From the NCBI RefSeq assembly GCF_016925615.1, contig NZ_CP070499.1:2666001-2730000 (forward strand): a DNA stretch of 64,000 bases. Reading direction: 5' to 3'. The translations under genes were made by a program, and so were the position numbers. Below the pieces are notes generated by a model that was not told where the DNA came from, made no database searches, and worked only from the letters and a program-made list of their open reading frames with translations. Below, piece after piece: positions 1-6,730 of this stretch (positions are counted from its first letter, which is position 1; every line of letters starts with the position of its first letter). The stretch comes from Natronosporangium hydrolyticum. Its GTDB lineage: Bacteria > Actinomycetota > Actinomycetes > Mycobacteriales > Micromonosporaceae.

Positions 1-2914
1 CGTCCTCATCATCGTCGAAGTCCAGGACCGAGGCGACCGCCGCGGCCTCCGCGGCCGCGGTCAGGCCGGAGTCGCGGGCGTACTCCCGCAGCTTGGGCGG
101 CGTGCTCAGCCGTTGTTTGCTCGCCGGCTCGCGGAGCATCAAGGTCCGGGCGTTCACCACCCCGGCGGTGGTCAGGTCCAGCACCCGGCGGCTTCGCCGC
201 GTGATCGGAATCGGGTCGACGAACCGGTCGCCCTGTCGCACATAGGGTCCGAACTGGCGGAAGGTCTGGGCATCCCGCTCCCGGCCGATCTTGTGCAGCA
301 CGTAGACCAGACCCGGGAAGCTGCGCCCCACCCGGGCGGTGGTCTGGATGAACTCGGCGGTGGTCAGCGGCAGGCCGAGCATCACCATGGTGTTGAGCCG
401 GTTGACATCCACGCCGTGGGAGAGCATCGAGCTGGCCGCCACCACATGCACCCGTTCGGCGAACTCCTCCTCAGGCTTTTCGAGCCGGTCGAGGATCGCC
501 CGTACGTCGTCGAACTCGGTTTGCCCCGTGAGCTGCTCGACGTTGATGCCCTCGACGGTGGCGTTGCTGCCCAGGCTTCGGGCGGCGGCCTCCACGTCGT
601 AGAGGGTGGTGCCGTAGACGACGTTGGTGCCGTAGCGATTGATCAGCTGCTCCGCATGCGCCGGGTCGATGCCGGCCTCGGCGCATACGCCCGCCGGGTC
701 GTCGATCAACTCTCGTACGCACCGCTGCAAGGTGTCAAGGGTGCGGTCGCTGACGTGCTCCAGCGTCACCCCGCGCGGTGCGACCGCGACGAATCGCCGC
801 AGCGGGGCCCTCGTCGGCGCGGTCCAGAACGATTCGCCGGCGTAGGGGCCGGGCTGCGGGAAGACCCGCCCGGTCCGCTGGTAGAGCACATCGACCTGCC
901 GGTCGTAGCCGGTCAGGGTCGCGCTGCTGGCAATGATCTTCGCCGGGGTGCCACCCAGCTCCCGCTGGAGATGGTCGAGCAGGCTCTCATAGTGGGAGTC
1001 GACCGCGCCGAGACTGTCGCGTAGCAGGTGCAGCTCGTCCTGGAGTCGCAGCGACGGGGCGAAGCGCCCGGGCTCCATCGGCAGCGGCTTGAGATCCGGG
1101 CCGCCCTGGCAGCCCGGCACCAGGCAGCCGTTCGGGGAGGAGGAACGCTCGGCGTAGGTGAAGCCGTGCCAATCCACCCGGCACAGCTTCCGGGGCGGGC
1201 CGACCAAGCCGCGCATCGCCTGCTGCAGGCCGATGGAGGCGGCCTTGTCCAAGGTGCCGACCACTACCGTCGGCAGAAACCGGAACACCTCCTGATCGAC
1301 CACATACATCGGCAGGGCTCGCCCGTACCGCCGGCACGTGCTATTGGAGCAGCGGTGCTCCAGCAACCAGCGCTCCCGGTTGAACCGCATCTGCAGGCCC
1401 TCGTCCCGGCAGAACGGGCACCGCAGCAGCACCTGGTACTTGCCCGGCATGCCGGGACCGTCCGGGGTGATCTCGTCATCCTTGTCGGTCTTCGGGACGA
1501 TCTTGTTGGGAGTGCCGGCCTGCCCCACCAGGAAACCGAGGCTGAACGGAGCGCCGCCGATGTTCTCATCCTCGCGGACTATCTCGGCGGCAGCGAGGGC
1601 GTCGGCGAACCGCTGGGTCTGTTGCAGGCTCAGCAGTCGTAACGGGAAGCGGGACCAGGCCGTGACGCCGACGATCTTGCCAGTGAGCCGATCGTGGAAA
1701 GCCGCGGTGAGCAACAGGCCCAGGTAGGTCTCGGTCTTGCCGCCGCCGGTGGCGAACCAGACCGTGTCGACGTAGCGGCTCTCCTCCTCGGGCGCAATTA
1801 GGAACCGCACCGTGGAGAGCAGGAAGCCGACCTGGAACGGCCGCCATTGCGAATAGTCCCGGCCCTTGGCGCTCAACCCGATCGCTTGGTTCATCAGCTG
1901 GAACGCTCGACGCACGGTCGAATCGGTGCGGATCAGGTCGAGGCCGGCGCGCAGCCGGTCCAGCTCGGCGAAGACCTCCTGGGCGCACCGGTCGGCCTCG
2001 GCGCGCATGGCATCGTCCCAACTCCCCGCCGCTTGCCGGGCATCCAGCGCGGCCCGGGACCAATGGGCGTCGTCGTAGGCGGCGAGCGCCGCCACCAGTG
2101 CGGTCAGCTGGGGCAGCGGGTCGTGCGCCAAAGTGTCGAACGACAGGTCGGGGGGAGTGGTAGTGCCGTGCCAGTAGTGGGGCCGATAGGTCTGCACAGT
2201 GACTGTGTCGGTAGTGCGGAAACCTCCGCCGTCCGGGAGGACCTCGACGCCGACGTTGATCCCGTACGCCGGCACCTCCCGGTCGTACCGGAAGCTGTCG
2301 GGCAGCGACTCGAGCTGGAAGGACGTAGTTGCCAGCCCGGCGACCTCCAGTTGAGTCTCGTAGAGGTGGGAGTCGGTGACCCCCGGAGCCCGCTCCGGGC
2401 TGGTGTTGACCAGCTGAACGACCAGCTCGGTCTCGGCGTGCCAGTCCTCCACCTCGACGCGTACCTCGGCCGATCGGCCCGGCGCGCCTACGGCGGCGAA
2501 GGCATCCGCGAGCTGTTTGCCGCCGAACGCGCCGCCGGTGGTGTCGGCGAGCACCGTCACGGTCTCCTCGACTAGGTCGCTGCGCCACCACCAGCGCTTC
2601 GAGTCCGTCCCTTCCTTGGGATCCCCGATCCACGCCCGTGCCCGTACCGTTACCGTCATCGACCAGGGCGGGGCCCCGGCCGGCCGGAGCCGGATCGCGA
2701 TCGCGCACGGATCAAGCCGCTCCGCCCGCTCGTCGGGGGTGCCGTGACGCACCTCTTCCTCCGGAGCCAGCCGGCCGAGCCAGAATGTCCCGGATGGCGC
2801 GACCTCCAACCGGTCCAGCCCATCACCCCGGCCGGCAGCCGTCACCCGATGGTCCAGCCAGGTCACGAAGGCGGAGCAGGCCTCCTCGGCTGACTGGGTG
2901 GACGTCGTGTTCAT
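1..2914 (-). CDS. DISARM-type (DrmA-like) superfamily 2 helicase, 3' end beyond the window
   Basis: The minus-strand frame is open from an ATG at 2914 to the window edge, giving 971 visible residues without a stop. SF2 helicase motifs occur in order: a Walker A-like GGGKTE (in ATGGGKTETY), a DEAH-type box in LQDELHLL, motif III SSATLTG, motif V SHGVDVNR and motif VI QTTARVGRS. Between Walker A and the DEAH box there is a four-cysteine, zinc-finger-like insertion (CPFC ... CSNSTC). A long beta-rich N-terminal region with PSGTFWLGRLAPEE precedes the helicase core, as I recall for DrmA helicases of DISARM phage-defence systems. The ATG overlaps the stop of the upstream sigma factor by four bases (ATGA), so the two are probably translationally coupled. 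A C5 methyltransferase lies divergently upstream, as expected for a class 2-like DISARM. DrmB (DUF1998) and DrmC (PLD) would lie beyond the edge and cannot be seen. Helicase identity is firm; the DISARM assignment is inference. Confidence 0.72.
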   Translation of the reverse strand, partial: MNTTSTQSAEEACSAFVTWLDHRVTAAGRGDGLDRLEVAPSGTFWLGRLAPEEEVRHGTPDERAERLDPCAIAIRLRPAGAPPWSMTVTVRARAWIGDPKEGTDSKRWWWRSDLVEETVTVLADTTGGAFGGKQLADAFAAVGAPGRSAEVRVEVEDWHAETELVVQLVNTSPERAPGVTDSHLYETQLEVAGLATTSFQLESLPDSFRYDREVPAYGINVGVEVLPDGGGFRTTDTVTVQTYRPHYWHGTTTPPDLSFDTLAHDPLPQLTALVAALAAYDDAHWSRAALDARQAAGSWDDAMRAEADRCAQEVFAELDRLRAGLDLIRTDSTVRRAFQLMNQAIGLSAKGRDYSQWRPFQVGFLLSTVRFLIAPEEESRYVDTVWFATGGGKTETYLGLLLTAAFHDRLTGKIVGVTAWSRFPLRLLSLQQTQRFADALAAAEIVREDENIGGAPFSLGFLVGQAGTPNKIVPKTDKDDEITPDGPGMPGKYQVLLRCPFCRDEGLQMRFNRERWLLEHRCSNSTCRRYGRALPMYVVDQEVFRFLPTVVVGTLDKAASIGLQQAMRGLVGPPRKLCRVDWHGFTYAERSSSPNGCLVPGCQGGPDLKPLPMEPGRFAPSLRLQDELHLLRDSLGAVDSHYESLLDHLQRELGGTPAKIIASSATLTGYDRQVDVLYQRTGRVFPQPGPYAGESFWTAPTRAPLRRFVAVAPRGVTLEHVSDRTLDTLQRCVRELIDDPAGVCAEAGIDPAHAEQLINRYGTNVVYGTTLYDVEAAARSLGSNATVEGINVEQLTGQTEFDDVRAILDRLEKPEEEFAERVHVVAASSMLSHGVDVNRLNTMVMLGLPLTTAEFIQTTARVGRSFPGLVYVLHKIGRERDAQTFRQFGPYVRQGDRFVDPIPITRRSRRVLDLTTAGVVNARTLMLREPASKQRLSTPPKLREYARDSGLTAAAEAAAVASVLDFDDDED

Positions 2915-4257
2915 CGGGTCCCCTTCCTCACCAAGTCTCTCGGGGCTGGCGAGTCGTCGATCAGGTAGGCCCGCAGCATCGCCGCCTCCTCGCTCACGCG
3001 CAAGGTCGTCAACGACTTGCCCTCGATCTGTCGGATGCGCTCGCGGGTCACGCCGTAGTCGGCAGCGATCGCCTCCAATGTCTCCTCATGGTCGGTGCCC
3101 AGGCCGAATCTGCGGGCGATGACGTCTACGGCGCGTCCCGGCAGGAGCGTCCAGACGGCGCGGCAGACGTCCGATGCCAGCATCGCGTGGCTGACGATCT
3201 CTGCGGGGTCCGCGCGTCCGTCCCGCTCAGCAGGGTTGCCGATCACGTCTGACAGGTGCAGATCGCCGTCGTCTCCGAGTAGCGCGTCGATGCTGACAAC
3301 CGGGCGTATGAGATCGAGTACGAACTGCACCGTCCCTGGGCTCAGCCCGGTCTTGTCGGCGATCTCGGTGAGTGTCGGATCCCGGTCCAGCCGCACGGTC
3401 AGCCTCGAGATGGTGCGCTTCACTTGTTGCACCTTCTCGTGGAAATGGATCGGGATTCGGATGGTCCTCCCTCGGTCACCGATGCCCCGCTCGATCGACT
3501 GGCGGATCCACCAGGTGGCATAAGTGGAGAACTTGAACCCCTTCGACCCGTCGAATTTGTCTGCCGCTCGCATCAAACCCAGGTTGCCGTCCTGGATCCG
3601 GTCGGCGAACTCGACCCCGCTCGATTGGTACTGAGCCAACCTGGCGACCGACACGACCAACCGAAGGTTCGCGCAGACGAGTTCGTTGTGGGCACGCCTG
3701 CCAGCCTGCGCGGTTGCGAGTAGGTGCTGTCGGACACCCGGTGCGAGATCGTCAGCGGTCGCAGTAGCGAGCTCCCGCTGAGCTGCGTCTCCGTGCGAAA
3801 TCAACGACCAGAGTTCCACCTCCCGCGGGCCGTCGATCAACGGGTAGCGCGCGATGGTTTTCAGGTACTGGCCGATCGAGTCACGCTGCAGCTCATAACC
3901 TGGCGTGGCGGCTCGCCTCGGCCCCGGGGCGCCAGTGTCCGGAAGATCAACACCGGCCCTTGCCAACAATCTCAGGACCTCGCTGTGCTGAGCTGGCGAG
4001 AGCGCACGCTTGGTCGCCAGCATCGCAACGTCACCGAGGGTAAGCTGCCCGCCGGTGCGGGTCCAGTCGCCGACCAGGTCCTCGACCGCCTGCCCGACGA
4101 CATCGTCGCTGGTCAGGGGAGTGGCAGGCTCGGCGTCCGGGCCGAACATCCAGCCAAGACCGTCTGACAAGGCCGCAGCGGAGCCCGCGTCGGGGCATGG
4201 ATCTTCGATCGTTGTCATGTCCGACGTGGGGTGGGAAACGCTAGCTGATGTCGTCAC
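2911..4257 (-). CDS. sigma-70 family (RpoD/SigA-like) RNA polymerase sigma factor in a defence operon
   Basis: About 448 residues. It has region 1.2 (DSIGQYLKTIARYPLI), region 2 (ANLRLVVSVARLAQ, DRIQDGNLGLMRAADKFD, KFSTYATWWIRQSIERGI), region 3 (PTLTEIADKTGLSPGTV) and region 4.2 with its helix-turn-helix (GVTRERIRQIEGKSL). Primary and group 2 sigma factors have this architecture; ECF factors do not. I prefer GTG at 4257, which follows AAGGGG by six bases. An in-frame ATG at 4272 has no good ribosome-binding site. The stop overlaps the start of the DrmA-like helicase, so this factor is the first coupled gene of the operon. The N-terminal 130 residues are acidic and not obviously homologous to housekeeping SigA region 1.1. 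A role as a dedicated activator of the island, or as a phage-responsive switch, is inference; it could also be a mobile extra principal-type sigma factor. Confidence 0.88.
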   Translation of the reverse strand: MTTSASVSHPTSDMTTIEDPCPDAGSAAALSDGLGWMFGPDAEPATPLTSDDVVGQAVEDLVGDWTRTGGQLTLGDVAMLATKRALSPAQHSEVLRLLARAGVDLPDTGAPGPRRAATPGYELQRDSIGQYLKTIARYPLIDGPREVELWSLISHGDAAQRELATATADDLAPGVRQHLLATAQAGRRAHNELVCANLRLVVSVARLAQYQSSGVEFADRIQDGNLGLMRAADKFDGSKGFKFSTYATWWIRQSIERGIGDRGRTIRIPIHFHEKVQQVKRTISRLTVRLDRDPTLTEIADKTGLSPGTVQFVLDLIRPVVSIDALLGDDGDLHLSDVIGNPAERDGRADPAEIVSHAMLASDVCRAVWTLLPGRAVDVIARRFGLGTDHEETLEAIAADYGVTRERIRQIEGKSLTTLRVSEEAAMLRAYLIDDSPAPRDLVRKGTR

Positions 4258-4330
4258 GGCGGGCCCCTTCATCCTAATGGGACCAGCCTAGAGCCAGAGT
4301 CCGACAAAGCGCATGAATCGAACACAGGTT

Positions 4331-4456
4331 CTATGGCTCGGAGGACTGCCTCGCCCTCATCTCTGCGGGGTCGACGAGGACACCCCGGTCGGCCCATTCA
4401 AGCAGGTCCCGGTGCTCCCGCCGTATCGACGCCAGCGCCGTTGCCGCAGTAGACAT
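4331..4456 (-). CDS. possible small ORF upstream of the sigma factor gene
   Basis: A 41-codon minus-strand ORF (MSTAATALASIRREHRDLL..., ending RARQSSEP) lies about 70 bp upstream of the sigma factor in the same orientation. Codon third positions are GC-rich, and the amphipathic segment IRREHRDLLEWADRG looks protein-like. There is no convincing ribosome-binding site. It could be a leader peptide, a degraded gene or chance. Confidence 0.25.
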   Translation of the reverse strand: MSTAATALASIRREHRDLLEWADRGVLVDPAEMRARQSSEP

Positions 4457-4506
4457 GGCGGGAAGCGAGGTAGAACGGTGTGTCCAATCCGGCCGAACGG
4501 GTGAAC

Positions 4507-4564
4507 CTAGTCGACCGTGGCGTACCCATAACCTTGCGACTCTTGACTGTGGTTGATCGACTAG
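4507..4564. promoter_or_regulatory. long-spaced inverted repeat flanking the methyltransferase promoter region
   Basis: CTAGTCGA at 4507-4514 is the exact reverse complement of TCGACTAG at 4557-4564. Similarity extends outward on both sides (AAC.. and ..GTT). The right arm ends ten bases before the methyltransferase ATG, next to the GTTGGGGG ribosome-binding site. The arms enclose the probable promoter. This arrangement suits looping autoregulation or a control site between the divergent sigma factor/helicase and methyltransferase units. Confidence 0.35.
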
Positions 4565-4573
4565 AGTTGGGGG

Positions 4574-5671
4574 ATGACCCCCCGACCTGCCAGGGCAGCC
4601 GTTGTCGATCTCTTCTGTGGTGTCGGCGGGCTCTCCTATGGGCTGCAACAGGCGGGGATCGACGTCGTAGCCGGTGTCGACGTCGATTCGGCGTGCGACT
4701 ACCCCTACCGCACCAACGTTGGTGCACCGTTCCATCAGCGTGACATCCGGGACCTCACTGCTGGCGAGCTAGCCACGATGTGGCCGGCCGACACAGTTCG
4801 CGTCCTTGCGGGCTGTGCGCCATGTCAGCCCTTCTCTCCGTATCGCCGAGGCGTGGACACCTCCCACGAGAACGAGTTCTCCCTGGTGGACGAGTTCTAC
4901 CGGCTGGTGGAAGGAACGTTGCCGGAGGTGGTGACGATGGAGAACGTTCCCCGCATTGGTAGCAAGCCCATCTTCCGCAACTTCGTTGTTGGTCTTCGAG
5001 GGCTCGGCTACCACGTAGATCACATGTCGTGTTATTGCCCGGCCTACGGCGTTCCCCAGCACCGTAGAAGGAAGGTTCTGGTTGCATCGTTGCTTGGTGA
5101 GATCACCGTCCCCGCAGGGCAGCTCGCCGCCAGCGGTTACCGGACCGTGGGGCAGAAGATCAAGAGCCTGCCGCCGGTTGGTCATGGTGAGACTCACCCT
5201 GATGATCCACTCCACAAGAGTAGGAGACTGACCGAACGCAACCTTGAGCGGATACGACAGTCCAAGCCCGGCGGGACCTGGCAGGACTGGGACGAGGAGC
5301 TGCGCTCTCCCTGCCATCGCAGAGCTTCGGGGGCGACCTTCCGTAACGTCTACGCTCGCATGCGCTGGGATGAGCCATCACCCACGATCACCACGCTCGC
5401 CTTCAACTTCGGTGCTGGCCGGTTCGGCCACCCCGAGCAGGACCGTGCTATAACGCTTCGCGAGGCAGCGATCCTGCAGAGCTTTCCGCCTGACTACGAG
5501 TTCGTGCCGGACGGGGCAGCTGTACAATTCGCGCCGCTTGGCCGACTCATCGGCAATGCCGTGCCACCTAAGCTGGCCGAGGCGGTGGGCGAGGCGATCG
5601 TCGCGCACGTGGGTGCTGTGGGAAGCGGTAGGGGCAGGTCCAGGAGAAGGCGTGCCCCTTCCGCGCAGTAG
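4574..5671 (+). CDS. DNA (cytosine-5-)-methyltransferase (DrmMII-like)
   Basis: 365 residues with the C5-methyltransferase motifs in canonical order: motif I DLFCGVGGLSYGL (SAM binding), motif IV GCAPCQPFS with the catalytic Cys, motif VI TMENVPRI, motif VIII QHRRRKV, and motif X IGNAVPPKLAEAV at the C-terminus. The ATG follows GTTGGGGG closely. The gene is divergent from the sigma factor/DrmA-like operon, so it probably supplies the self-marking methylation of a DISARM-like or other restriction system. The target-recognition region is between motifs VIII and IX and cannot be read for specificity. No stand-alone restriction endonuclease is visible beside it. An orphan or Dcm-like methyltransferase is the alternative. 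Confidence 0.93.
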   Translation: MTPRPARAAVVDLFCGVGGLSYGLQQAGIDVVAGVDVDSACDYPYRTNVGAPFHQRDIRDLTAGELATMWPADTVRVLAGCAPCQPFSPYRRGVDTSHENEFSLVDEFYRLVEGTLPEVVTMENVPRIGSKPIFRNFVVGLRGLGYHVDHMSCYCPAYGVPQHRRRKVLVASLLGEITVPAGQLAASGYRTVGQKIKSLPPVGHGETHPDDPLHKSRRLTERNLERIRQSKPGGTWQDWDEELRSPCHRRASGATFRNVYARMRWDEPSPTITTLAFNFGAGRFGHPEQDRAITLREAAILQSFPPDYEFVPDGAAVQFAPLGRLIGNAVPPKLAEAVGEAIVAHVGAVGSGRGRSRRRRAPSAQ

Positions 5672-5734
5672 CTCCGGATCGAGAACAACCGGGCTGCTTC
5701 GCCAATCGGGGTTTCAACCTGTTTGGCCTGCCCG

Positions 5735-5982
5735 CTCACCTCGTCGACTACATCTGTGGCCACTGGCGCATCGAGGCCCTGCACCACATCCGAGACATCA
5801 GCTACGGCGAGGACGCCTCCCAGCTCCACGCCGGCACCGCACCCGGAGCCATGGCGGCACTGCGTAACCTCACCACCGGCATCCTGAAACACCACGGCAC
5901 GGCCAACATCGCAAGAGCCTCACGCCGCAACGCCCGCGATGCTCACCGGCCTCTCACGATCCTCGGCATCAGCACTCCGTAA
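5735..5982 (+). pseudogene. C-terminal remnant of an ISAs1-family transposase
   Basis: Forward-frame translation ending at TAA 5980-5982 reads YICGHWRIEALHHIRD, then YGEDASQLHAGTAPGAMAAL and a tail ending RRPLTILG-like (HRPLTILGISTP). This matches the C-terminus of ISAs1-type DDE transposases (GHWxIEN...HxxRDVxxxEDxS). About three quarters of the gene, including the DD catalytic residues, is missing, and no start codon or terminal repeats are evident. It marks past insertion at the edge of the defence island. Confidence 0.75.
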
Positions 5983-6145
5983 CCGAAATTCCGACACTTC
6001 GCCGGAGCCCTGGTCCGGGCTGGACAGATCAGTGATGCGGTACCACCTCGACTGGCGACCACGATGGGTTCGAACCATTGAGGTCACATAGCCGAAGGAA
6101 GCGAGCCGCAGGCGAGCGGTTGTGACATCAAGAGCTATCGCTTGG

Positions 6146-6541: not shown

Positions 6542-6645
6542 TGAATCGGCGGCCGTTTCAGGCTTCGTCCATGGTCACATCGACCGTGGGGAGGCGTAGC
6601 TCAATTGCTAGGACGCGCCGCTCCAGCGTCGGCAGAGAATCCATG

Positions 6646-6730
6646 TGTCCGGAGGGGGACTTGAACCCCCACGCCCTTAACGGGCACTAGCACCTCAAGC
6701 TAGCGCGTCTGCCATTCCGCCACCCGGACA
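6646..6730 (-). tRNA. tRNA-Leu (anticodon GAG)
   Basis: On the minus strand the acceptor arm TGTCCGG pairs with CCGGACA. The T arm reads GGGGGTTCAAGTCCCCC, the variable arm is long (class II), and the anticodon arm CTAGC-TTGAGGT-GCTAG places GAG at positions 34-36. CCA is not encoded. The gene borders the accessory island and may be an integration site. Confidence 0.95.

Follow-up and report, generated by a model that had tools for sequence, protein, structure and literature searches.

The window examined here, a stretch of 64,000 nucleotides from the actinobacterium Natronosporangium hydrolyticum (contig NZ_CP070499.1; G000:C1:2666001-2730000), is taken from a single-contig genome of 5.70 Mb and carries at its left end a DISARM-like defence module whose operon begins with a gene for a sigma-70 family factor (Table 1). 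The stop of this gene overlaps the start of a gene for a DrmA-type superfamily 2 (SF2) helicase, and a C5 cytosine methyltransferase is encoded divergently. An earlier, sequence-only reading had described a sigma-70 factor with regions 1.2 to 4.2, the ATGA overlap, a large SF2 helicase with a zinc-finger insertion and the divergent methyltransferase, and all four elements were found again, with a region-1.1-like block added to the sigma factor. The helicase measures 1022 amino acids (aa) in full (L008:1846-4914, equivalent to G000:C1:2665846-2668914), Cys-rich zinc motifs are visible in its translation, and both its top PADLOC match (DrmA, 323 bits) and the top solved-structure match of its family profile (DrmA 7s9v, E 1.3e-72) are to DrmA. 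The methyltransferase matches PF00145 (165 bits) and PADLOC DrmMII (325 bits). In genomes, sigma factor and helicase are annotated merely as a "sigma-70 family factor" beside a "helicase-related protein". Judging from its recurrence and inheritance across genomes, the sigma factor is almost certainly an integral part of the defence module.

Table 1. Features of the sigma-drmA operon and the divergent methyltransferase gene (positions in the window).
Feature	Position	Strand	Details
Sigma-70 family factor, first gene of the operon	2911..4272	(-)	453 aa; region-1.1-like block plus regions 1.2, 2, 3, 4; RpoD-type models 230-256 bits
DrmA-type SF2 helicase	2..2914	(-)	N-terminal 971 of 1022 aa in the window; extends left to G000:C1:2665846
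ATGA overlap, sigma stop / drmA start	2911..2914	(-)	Putative translational coupling
PafBC/RecA-NDp-type promoter motif TTGTCGGAC-N8-TAGGCT	4285..4307	(-)	12 nt upstream of the sigma ATG
LexA-like box GAAC-N4-GTTC	4320..4331	(-)	12 nt upstream of the promoter motif
Extended -10-like element GATCGACTAGAGT, conserved	4555..4567	(+)	Predicted leaderless start 6 nt downstream
C5 cytosine methyltransferase, DrmMII-like	4574..5671	(+)	Divergent from the sigma gene

Recurrence of the sigma-DrmA adjacency in other genomes, which the sequence-only reading had raised, was borne out. When a species-level genome collection was scanned with a DrmA profile, the sigma factor not being used as a query, 80 of 81 relatives were kept, comprising 76 loci of a close clade and four distant ones (31-36%). 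The sigma gene is present in 64 of the 76 close-clade loci, distributed over Actinomycetota (33), Pseudomonadota (26), Acidobacteriota (2), Myxococcota (2) and Planctomycetota (1). It lies directly upstream of drmA on the same strand in 54 of them, and convergently downstream in the other 10; in most other members, the sigma-drmA junction is a few-base overlap or gap. The DrmB-type partner gene, searched for with its own profile, occurs in 76/76 close-clade loci, the C5 methylase in 65/76 and a Vsr gene in 46/76. Among the 12 close-clade loci lacking a sigma gene, nine carry DrmC, two (L087 and L092) lie on contigs that end too early to judge, and one (L082) is without sigma. At L055, the sigma factor sits inside an unusually long open frame upstream of DrmA, called at 2165 aa, whose length is probably a product of high GC content.

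Within the order of the host, a DrmA search of 397 genomes gave matches in 58, and at all ten loci with a DrmA identity of 53-100% (the window's own included) the genes follow in the order sigma, DrmA, DrmB; this sample overlaps the first (L011 = L055, L018 = L112, L019 = L076). Farther from the window's DrmA, the sigma gene is absent from the four distant loci, which have long flanks (L114, L117-L119), and was not seen in the flanks of 20 distant loci (L020-L039, identity 39% or less), a weak negative because these flanks span only about 1.5 kb. Plasmids show the same division, as two close-clade members, on Roseomonas pOT10-1 and on a Burkholderia plasmid where DrmA is interrupted, both carry the sigma gene, and two plasmids with a distant DrmA (Halobacterium, Streptomyces) carry a gene of the phospholipase D-like (PLD) type and no sigma gene. 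Phage records gave zero matches.

Sigma factor and DrmA have also been inherited together. In a tree of 89 sequences (65 system sigmas, 23 housekeeping-type references from the same genomes and one RpoD lying in L105), the system sigmas form one side and the references with the L105 RpoD the other, at a moderate Shimodaira-Hasegawa-like approximate likelihood ratio test (SH-aLRT) value of 90. Repeated recruitment of local housekeeping sigmas, considered as an origin, disagrees with the tree, though at that moderate support. Pairwise distances of sigma and DrmA correlate over 64 loci with a Mantel r of 0.93, a value equalled by 0 of 9999 permutations, and permutations that exchanged only loci of one class reached a maximum of 0.63. 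The sigma and DrmA trees have 38 of 61 splits in common, whereas 500 shuffles never gave more than 3 (the DrmA tree was built with FastTree from 80 rows; L056, whose called gene exceeds the 1300-aa limit, was left out of it and of the Mantel test). Some of the splits in common unite different classes and phyla, for example by placing an Acidobacteriota locus within proteobacterial ones, which points to the transfer of sigma and DrmA as a unit. Unrelated genes do collect in defence islands, and the sigma gene might in principle be a chance or hitchhiking neighbour of this kind; given the recurrence at 64 of 76 loci, the congruent trees and the plasmid copies, this explanation was rejected and is accorded practically no credence.

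The PLD nuclease DrmC belongs to the DISARM core drmABC, and class 2 DISARM consists of DrmE, DrmA, DrmB, DrmC and a C5 methylase. The sequence-only reading had recognised the class 2 theme and had suggested looking for DrmB (DUF1998-like) and DrmC (PLD) beyond the left edge of the window. A DrmB-type gene does lie there, and the locus resembles DISARM in its DrmA-type helicase, DrmB-type partner and DrmMII-like C5 methylase. Canonical DISARM it is not: the sigma factor is a gene of the operon, profiles made from relatives (10 of them for DrmC) gave no match to DrmC or DrmE at E 1e-3 over the window plus 36 kb on its left side (G000:C1:2630001-2730000; L007, L008, L009), and DrmA, with an NCBIfam score of 360 against a cut-off of 950, falls far short, as do DrmB and DrmD. 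As defined by these cut-offs, the locus falls outside DISARM, and it appears to use the same core pair, DrmAB.

Sigma factor and DrmC are nearly mutually exclusive in the close clade, as DrmC occurs in 10 of the 76 loci, nine without sigma and one (L107) with both (Fisher p 1.5e-8). The sigma-less loci also resemble DISARM in that five of nine (L090, L095, L100, L103, L106) have a DrmE-like gene of about 790 aa preceding DrmA, with a weak match to Pfam DrmE_C in L095 only (E 0.003). Loci with DrmC make up a single nested clade of the DrmA tree, and the sister of this clade, L107, has both genes; the sigma factor is therefore probably ancestral in the DrmA clade and was lost a single time. Because the DrmC loci form one clade, the exclusion does not constitute independent data, and the distribution is consistent with a single ancestral replacement. 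DrmC is itself described, in the available part of Bravo et al. 2022, as dispensable and frequently missing.

Such an exclusion, as though one protein substituted for the other, could also be read as a sign that the sigma factor is a direct part of immunity, with the holoenzyme opening or marking foreign DNA, or being monitored by DrmAB, and the sigma factor being a sensor or loader and not a regulator of the module. Such a role would fit its strict co-inheritance with DrmA, the translational coupling of the two genes and the region-1.1-like domain. The activities of sigma and DrmC, however, bear no resemblance to each other, the exclusion amounts to one clade and hence one event, and the convergent arrangement at 10 loci parts sigma from DrmA; a direct role is rated very unlikely.

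The protein itself resembles the primary (group 1) sigmas HrdB, SigA and RpoD in having regions 1.2-4.2 and a region-1.1-like block. Pfam matches cover regions 1.2, 2, 3 and 4 and do not list region 1.1; the N-terminal block was aligned to RpoD region 1.1 by hhalign (probability 83.7, P 8e-6), and 30 column-shuffled controls gave 0.64 or less. In E. coli numbering, transferred to a Pseudoalteromonas RpoD, the residues for promoter melting and -35 reading are retained, with W434, Y430, T429, E585, R588 and Q589 in 65/65 system sigmas and W433, Q437 and R584 in 64/65. At Ec440, presumably a -12-reading position, T is found in 13/65 system sigmas versus 17/23 references; the core-binding position Ec402 is L in 4/65 versus 23/23, Ec446 is Q in 23/23 references and mostly R or T in system sigmas, and reference-invariant positions drift across Ec596-603. 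The promoter-opening and -35-reading residues are intact, and some core-binding and -12 positions have diverged. Unlike primary sigmas, the system sigmas form a separate clade with these altered positions, and even among L011-L019 they show 34-60% identity, compared with 51-79% for the helicase.

A canonical -35-reading helix next to drifting positions (Ec402, Ec446, Ec596-603), in a sigma factor less conserved than its helicase, is what might be expected of a factor that maintains transcription of defence genes once the housekeeping sigma has been disabled by anti-sigma or polymerase-modifying proteins of a phage. The diverged surfaces would then matter, and special promoters would be unnecessary. 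Rapid divergence would also fit an altered choice of promoters, however, and the positions rest on the transferred numbering; resistance to phage takeover is considered a rather unlikely purpose of the protein.

Upstream of the sigma gene stands a motif that conforms to the PafBC promoter consensus, TTGTCRGTG-N8-TANNNT. At the same conserved position, the motif is found in the window and in 10 of 54 upstream-sigma loci (L040, with one relaxed base, L041, L042, L046, L048-L052 and L054), accompanied by the LexA-like box in the window and in nine of the ten (L051 is without it). Two more matches, in L053 and L112, stand at other positions and look like chance. Eight further members of the window's subfamily (L043, L044, L045, L047, L053, L055, L066, L104) and 21/21 non-actinobacterial loci are without the motif at the conserved place. 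As background, 1433 windows from the same actinobacterial loci contained the exact promoter motif 5 times, the box 36 times and both once. In the host genome, the promoter pattern occurs 11 times versus 5 for a reversed control; three matches precede uvrA, polA and recA, and several of the rest lie in front of unrelated genes. Two WYL-domain genes in tandem (G000:C1:3015294-3016489), unnamed by NCBIfam, are a PafBC candidate. In the available text of two reports (PMC6789036, PMC11804915), single-stranded DNA activates PafBC, which acts together with the housekeeping sigma on the RecA-NDp motif, and a partly available study gives the Streptomyces LexA consensus as tCGAAC-N4-GNNCGa (PMC9380542).

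The sequence-only reading had proposed that the sigma factor could restrict expression of the defence genes to infection. The DNA-damage motif lends this some support, with the qualification that such a promoter would switch on the sigma gene itself. A damage-inducible, dedicated sigma factor that transcribes the genes of the DISARM-like DrmAB/C5-methylase module is the reading preferred here, although from the sequence evidence our confidence in it is evenly divided. Single-stranded or damaged DNA present during infection would activate PafBC and inactivate LexA, and the housekeeping polymerase would then transcribe the sigma-drmA-drmB operon. The new sigma factor, with core RNA polymerase, would act at defence-gene promoters, raising and sustaining expression, while DrmAB would attack foreign DNA and the C5 methylase would mark that of the host. 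We infer that the motif is functional and that phage infection is its trigger. So far, the available portion of Bravo et al. 2022 has portrayed DrmAB as permanently present and kept in check by self-inhibition.

A candidate target of such a sigma factor is the leaderless promoter of the C5 methylase, which would also fit a housekeeping sigma. The window and 10 of 11 related loci contain the core of its element, ACTANRGT; within those loci, the longer form is confined to this site. In the ten convergent proteobacterial loci, a promoter common to sigma and C5 methylase was sought by aligning 9 and 10 upstream regions, respectively, and was rejected, as no clear sigma motif emerged. An RGATCTTG-like element was observed upstream of most C5 methylases in these loci. 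A conserved promoter before the ARMADA genes described below was likewise discarded, a TANNNT element being visible and nothing specific.

Several points weigh against a damage-inducible, dedicated sigma factor. Genome-wide, the C5-methylase element shows no enrichment (8 occurrences versus 8 for a reversed control), and it was rejected as a marker of a genome-wide sigma regulon; L082, which lacks the system sigma, nevertheless retains the element. The promoters read by the sigma factor, and the blocking of phage by this subtype, are given here as predictions. The DNA-damage motif is confined to part of the window's subfamily, the other subfamilies being without it, and the support for a separate system-sigma clade is moderate. 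Finally, DrmAB can do without a sigma factor, as its sigma-less, DrmC-type relatives show.

The sigma factor might instead be a plain autoregulator that merely tunes its own operon and adds no infection-specific behaviour. The first position in an operon is a frequent one for regulators, and mzaA, a precedent, is found in just a few related systems according to the available text of PMC9523054. The motif before the operon, however, belongs to a type that PafBC and the housekeeping sigma recognise together (PMC11804915, in part) and not to an unknown sigma type, and conservation over five phyla is not required of a dispensable tuner; this role is regarded as quite improbable. A bolder idea can be counted as a long shot, namely that a primary-like sigma family evolved as immune proteins that move with DrmAB between phyla, the holoenzyme directly recognising or opening foreign DNA for DrmAB and so substituting for the branch with the nuclease DrmC, and the DNA-damage sensor PafBC being the trigger.

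The operon continues to the left of the window on the same strand, in the order DrmA, DrmB-type gene, SNF2 helicase, methylase, DEAD helicase, UvrD-like helicase and restriction-endonuclease-like gene. The DrmB-type gene (577 aa) scores 109 bits for PADLOC DrmB and 50 in NCBIfam (cut-off 240), with no Pfam match, and the SNF2 helicase (971 aa) scores 304 bits for PADLOC DrmD and 336 for NCBIfam DrmD (cut-off 610). The methylase (1597 aa) matches PADLOC type IIG (1566 bits) and DrmMI (179), and the DEAD helicase (2116 aa), with an MZB/DUF1998 domain, matches DruE (257). They are followed by the UvrD-like helicase (763 aa), and the operon closes with the restriction-endonuclease-like gene (442 aa; L009:15650-16978 (-); PADLOC mREase_II, 576 bits). 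The four genes behind DrmB (P0003, P0002, P0001 and L009:17017-19308, all (-)) match the ARMADA Type II order ArmA-ArmB-ArmC-ArmD; a C-terminal Vsr-type nuclease in ArmC and an N-terminal RelE domain in ArmD were noted by eye, and neither is listed by Pfam at E 0.01. As far as the available text of PMC12458937 describes it, ARMADA Type II likewise has an SNF2/BrxHII-like helicase, a methylase, a YprA-like helicase and a GajB/UvrD-like helicase in this order; the set here differs in sitting behind a sigma-DrmA-DrmB block and in having an antisense small gene pair between its first two genes. The word "sigma" is used in that preprint's main text (Bell et al. 2025) solely as a supplier's name. 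The small pair (L007:12365-12930 (+)) looks RelB/RelE-like by eye, with no NCBIfam match at 1e-4. An ARMADA-like SNF2 helicase and a IIG methylase co-occur in 13 of the 80 loci, L082 included.

Other features were noted around the block. Farther left (L009:4891-7956 (+)), behind a transposase gene (L009:10387-11739), a helicase-like gene is followed by a short PLD-like frame (L009:7612-7956), all identified by eye. To the right, an apparent transposase remnant, also identified by eye, lies directly behind the C5 methylase (window ~5700-5985 (+)), and a tRNA-Leu(GAG) gene (6645-6729 (-)), close to where the defence block ends on the right, is a possible island boundary.

Unlike DISARM, the module family includes accessory nucleases, namely a NERD-helicase, an SRA-HNH protein, an Mrr-helicase with a MutL-like ATPase, and Vsr; among the 64 sigma loci, the NERD-helicase is found in 30, the SRA-HNH protein in 5 and the MutL-like ATPase in 5. 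The Mrr-helicase and MutL-like ATPase pair was observed at sigma-DrmAB loci L062, L065, L069, L076 and L078. A MutL-like protein is also part of the anti-phage system MZA. In MZA, mzaA encodes a sigma-70 family protein (NCBIfam NF041931; PMC9523054, in the text available), which demonstrates that a sigma factor can form part of a defence system, and the idea as such is therefore not unprecedented. The partner genes here come from other families, however, and MzaA, although the top NCBIfam score of the sigma factor (259 bits, cut-off 800), scores about the same as the RpoD-type models just below it. MzaA proteins over the cut-off were sought for the sigma tree in 369 and in 198 genomes, and none was found. 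A literature search of open-licence papers gave no report of a sigma factor in DISARM-like systems. What is new is a DISARM-like defence variant with its own sigma factor, the idea of a defence-encoded sigma being known already from mzaA.

A conserved and co-inherited sigma factor in a large DrmA clade would mean that, in these bacteria, the control of transcription belongs to the defence itself. The pairing over several phyla suggests that, in the course of evolution, bacteria have given a defence system a transcription switch of its own. If confirmed, it would allow direct testing of how a defence system stays expressed during phage takeover of RNA polymerase, and the sigma factor could be used as a marker for finding the module in genomes.

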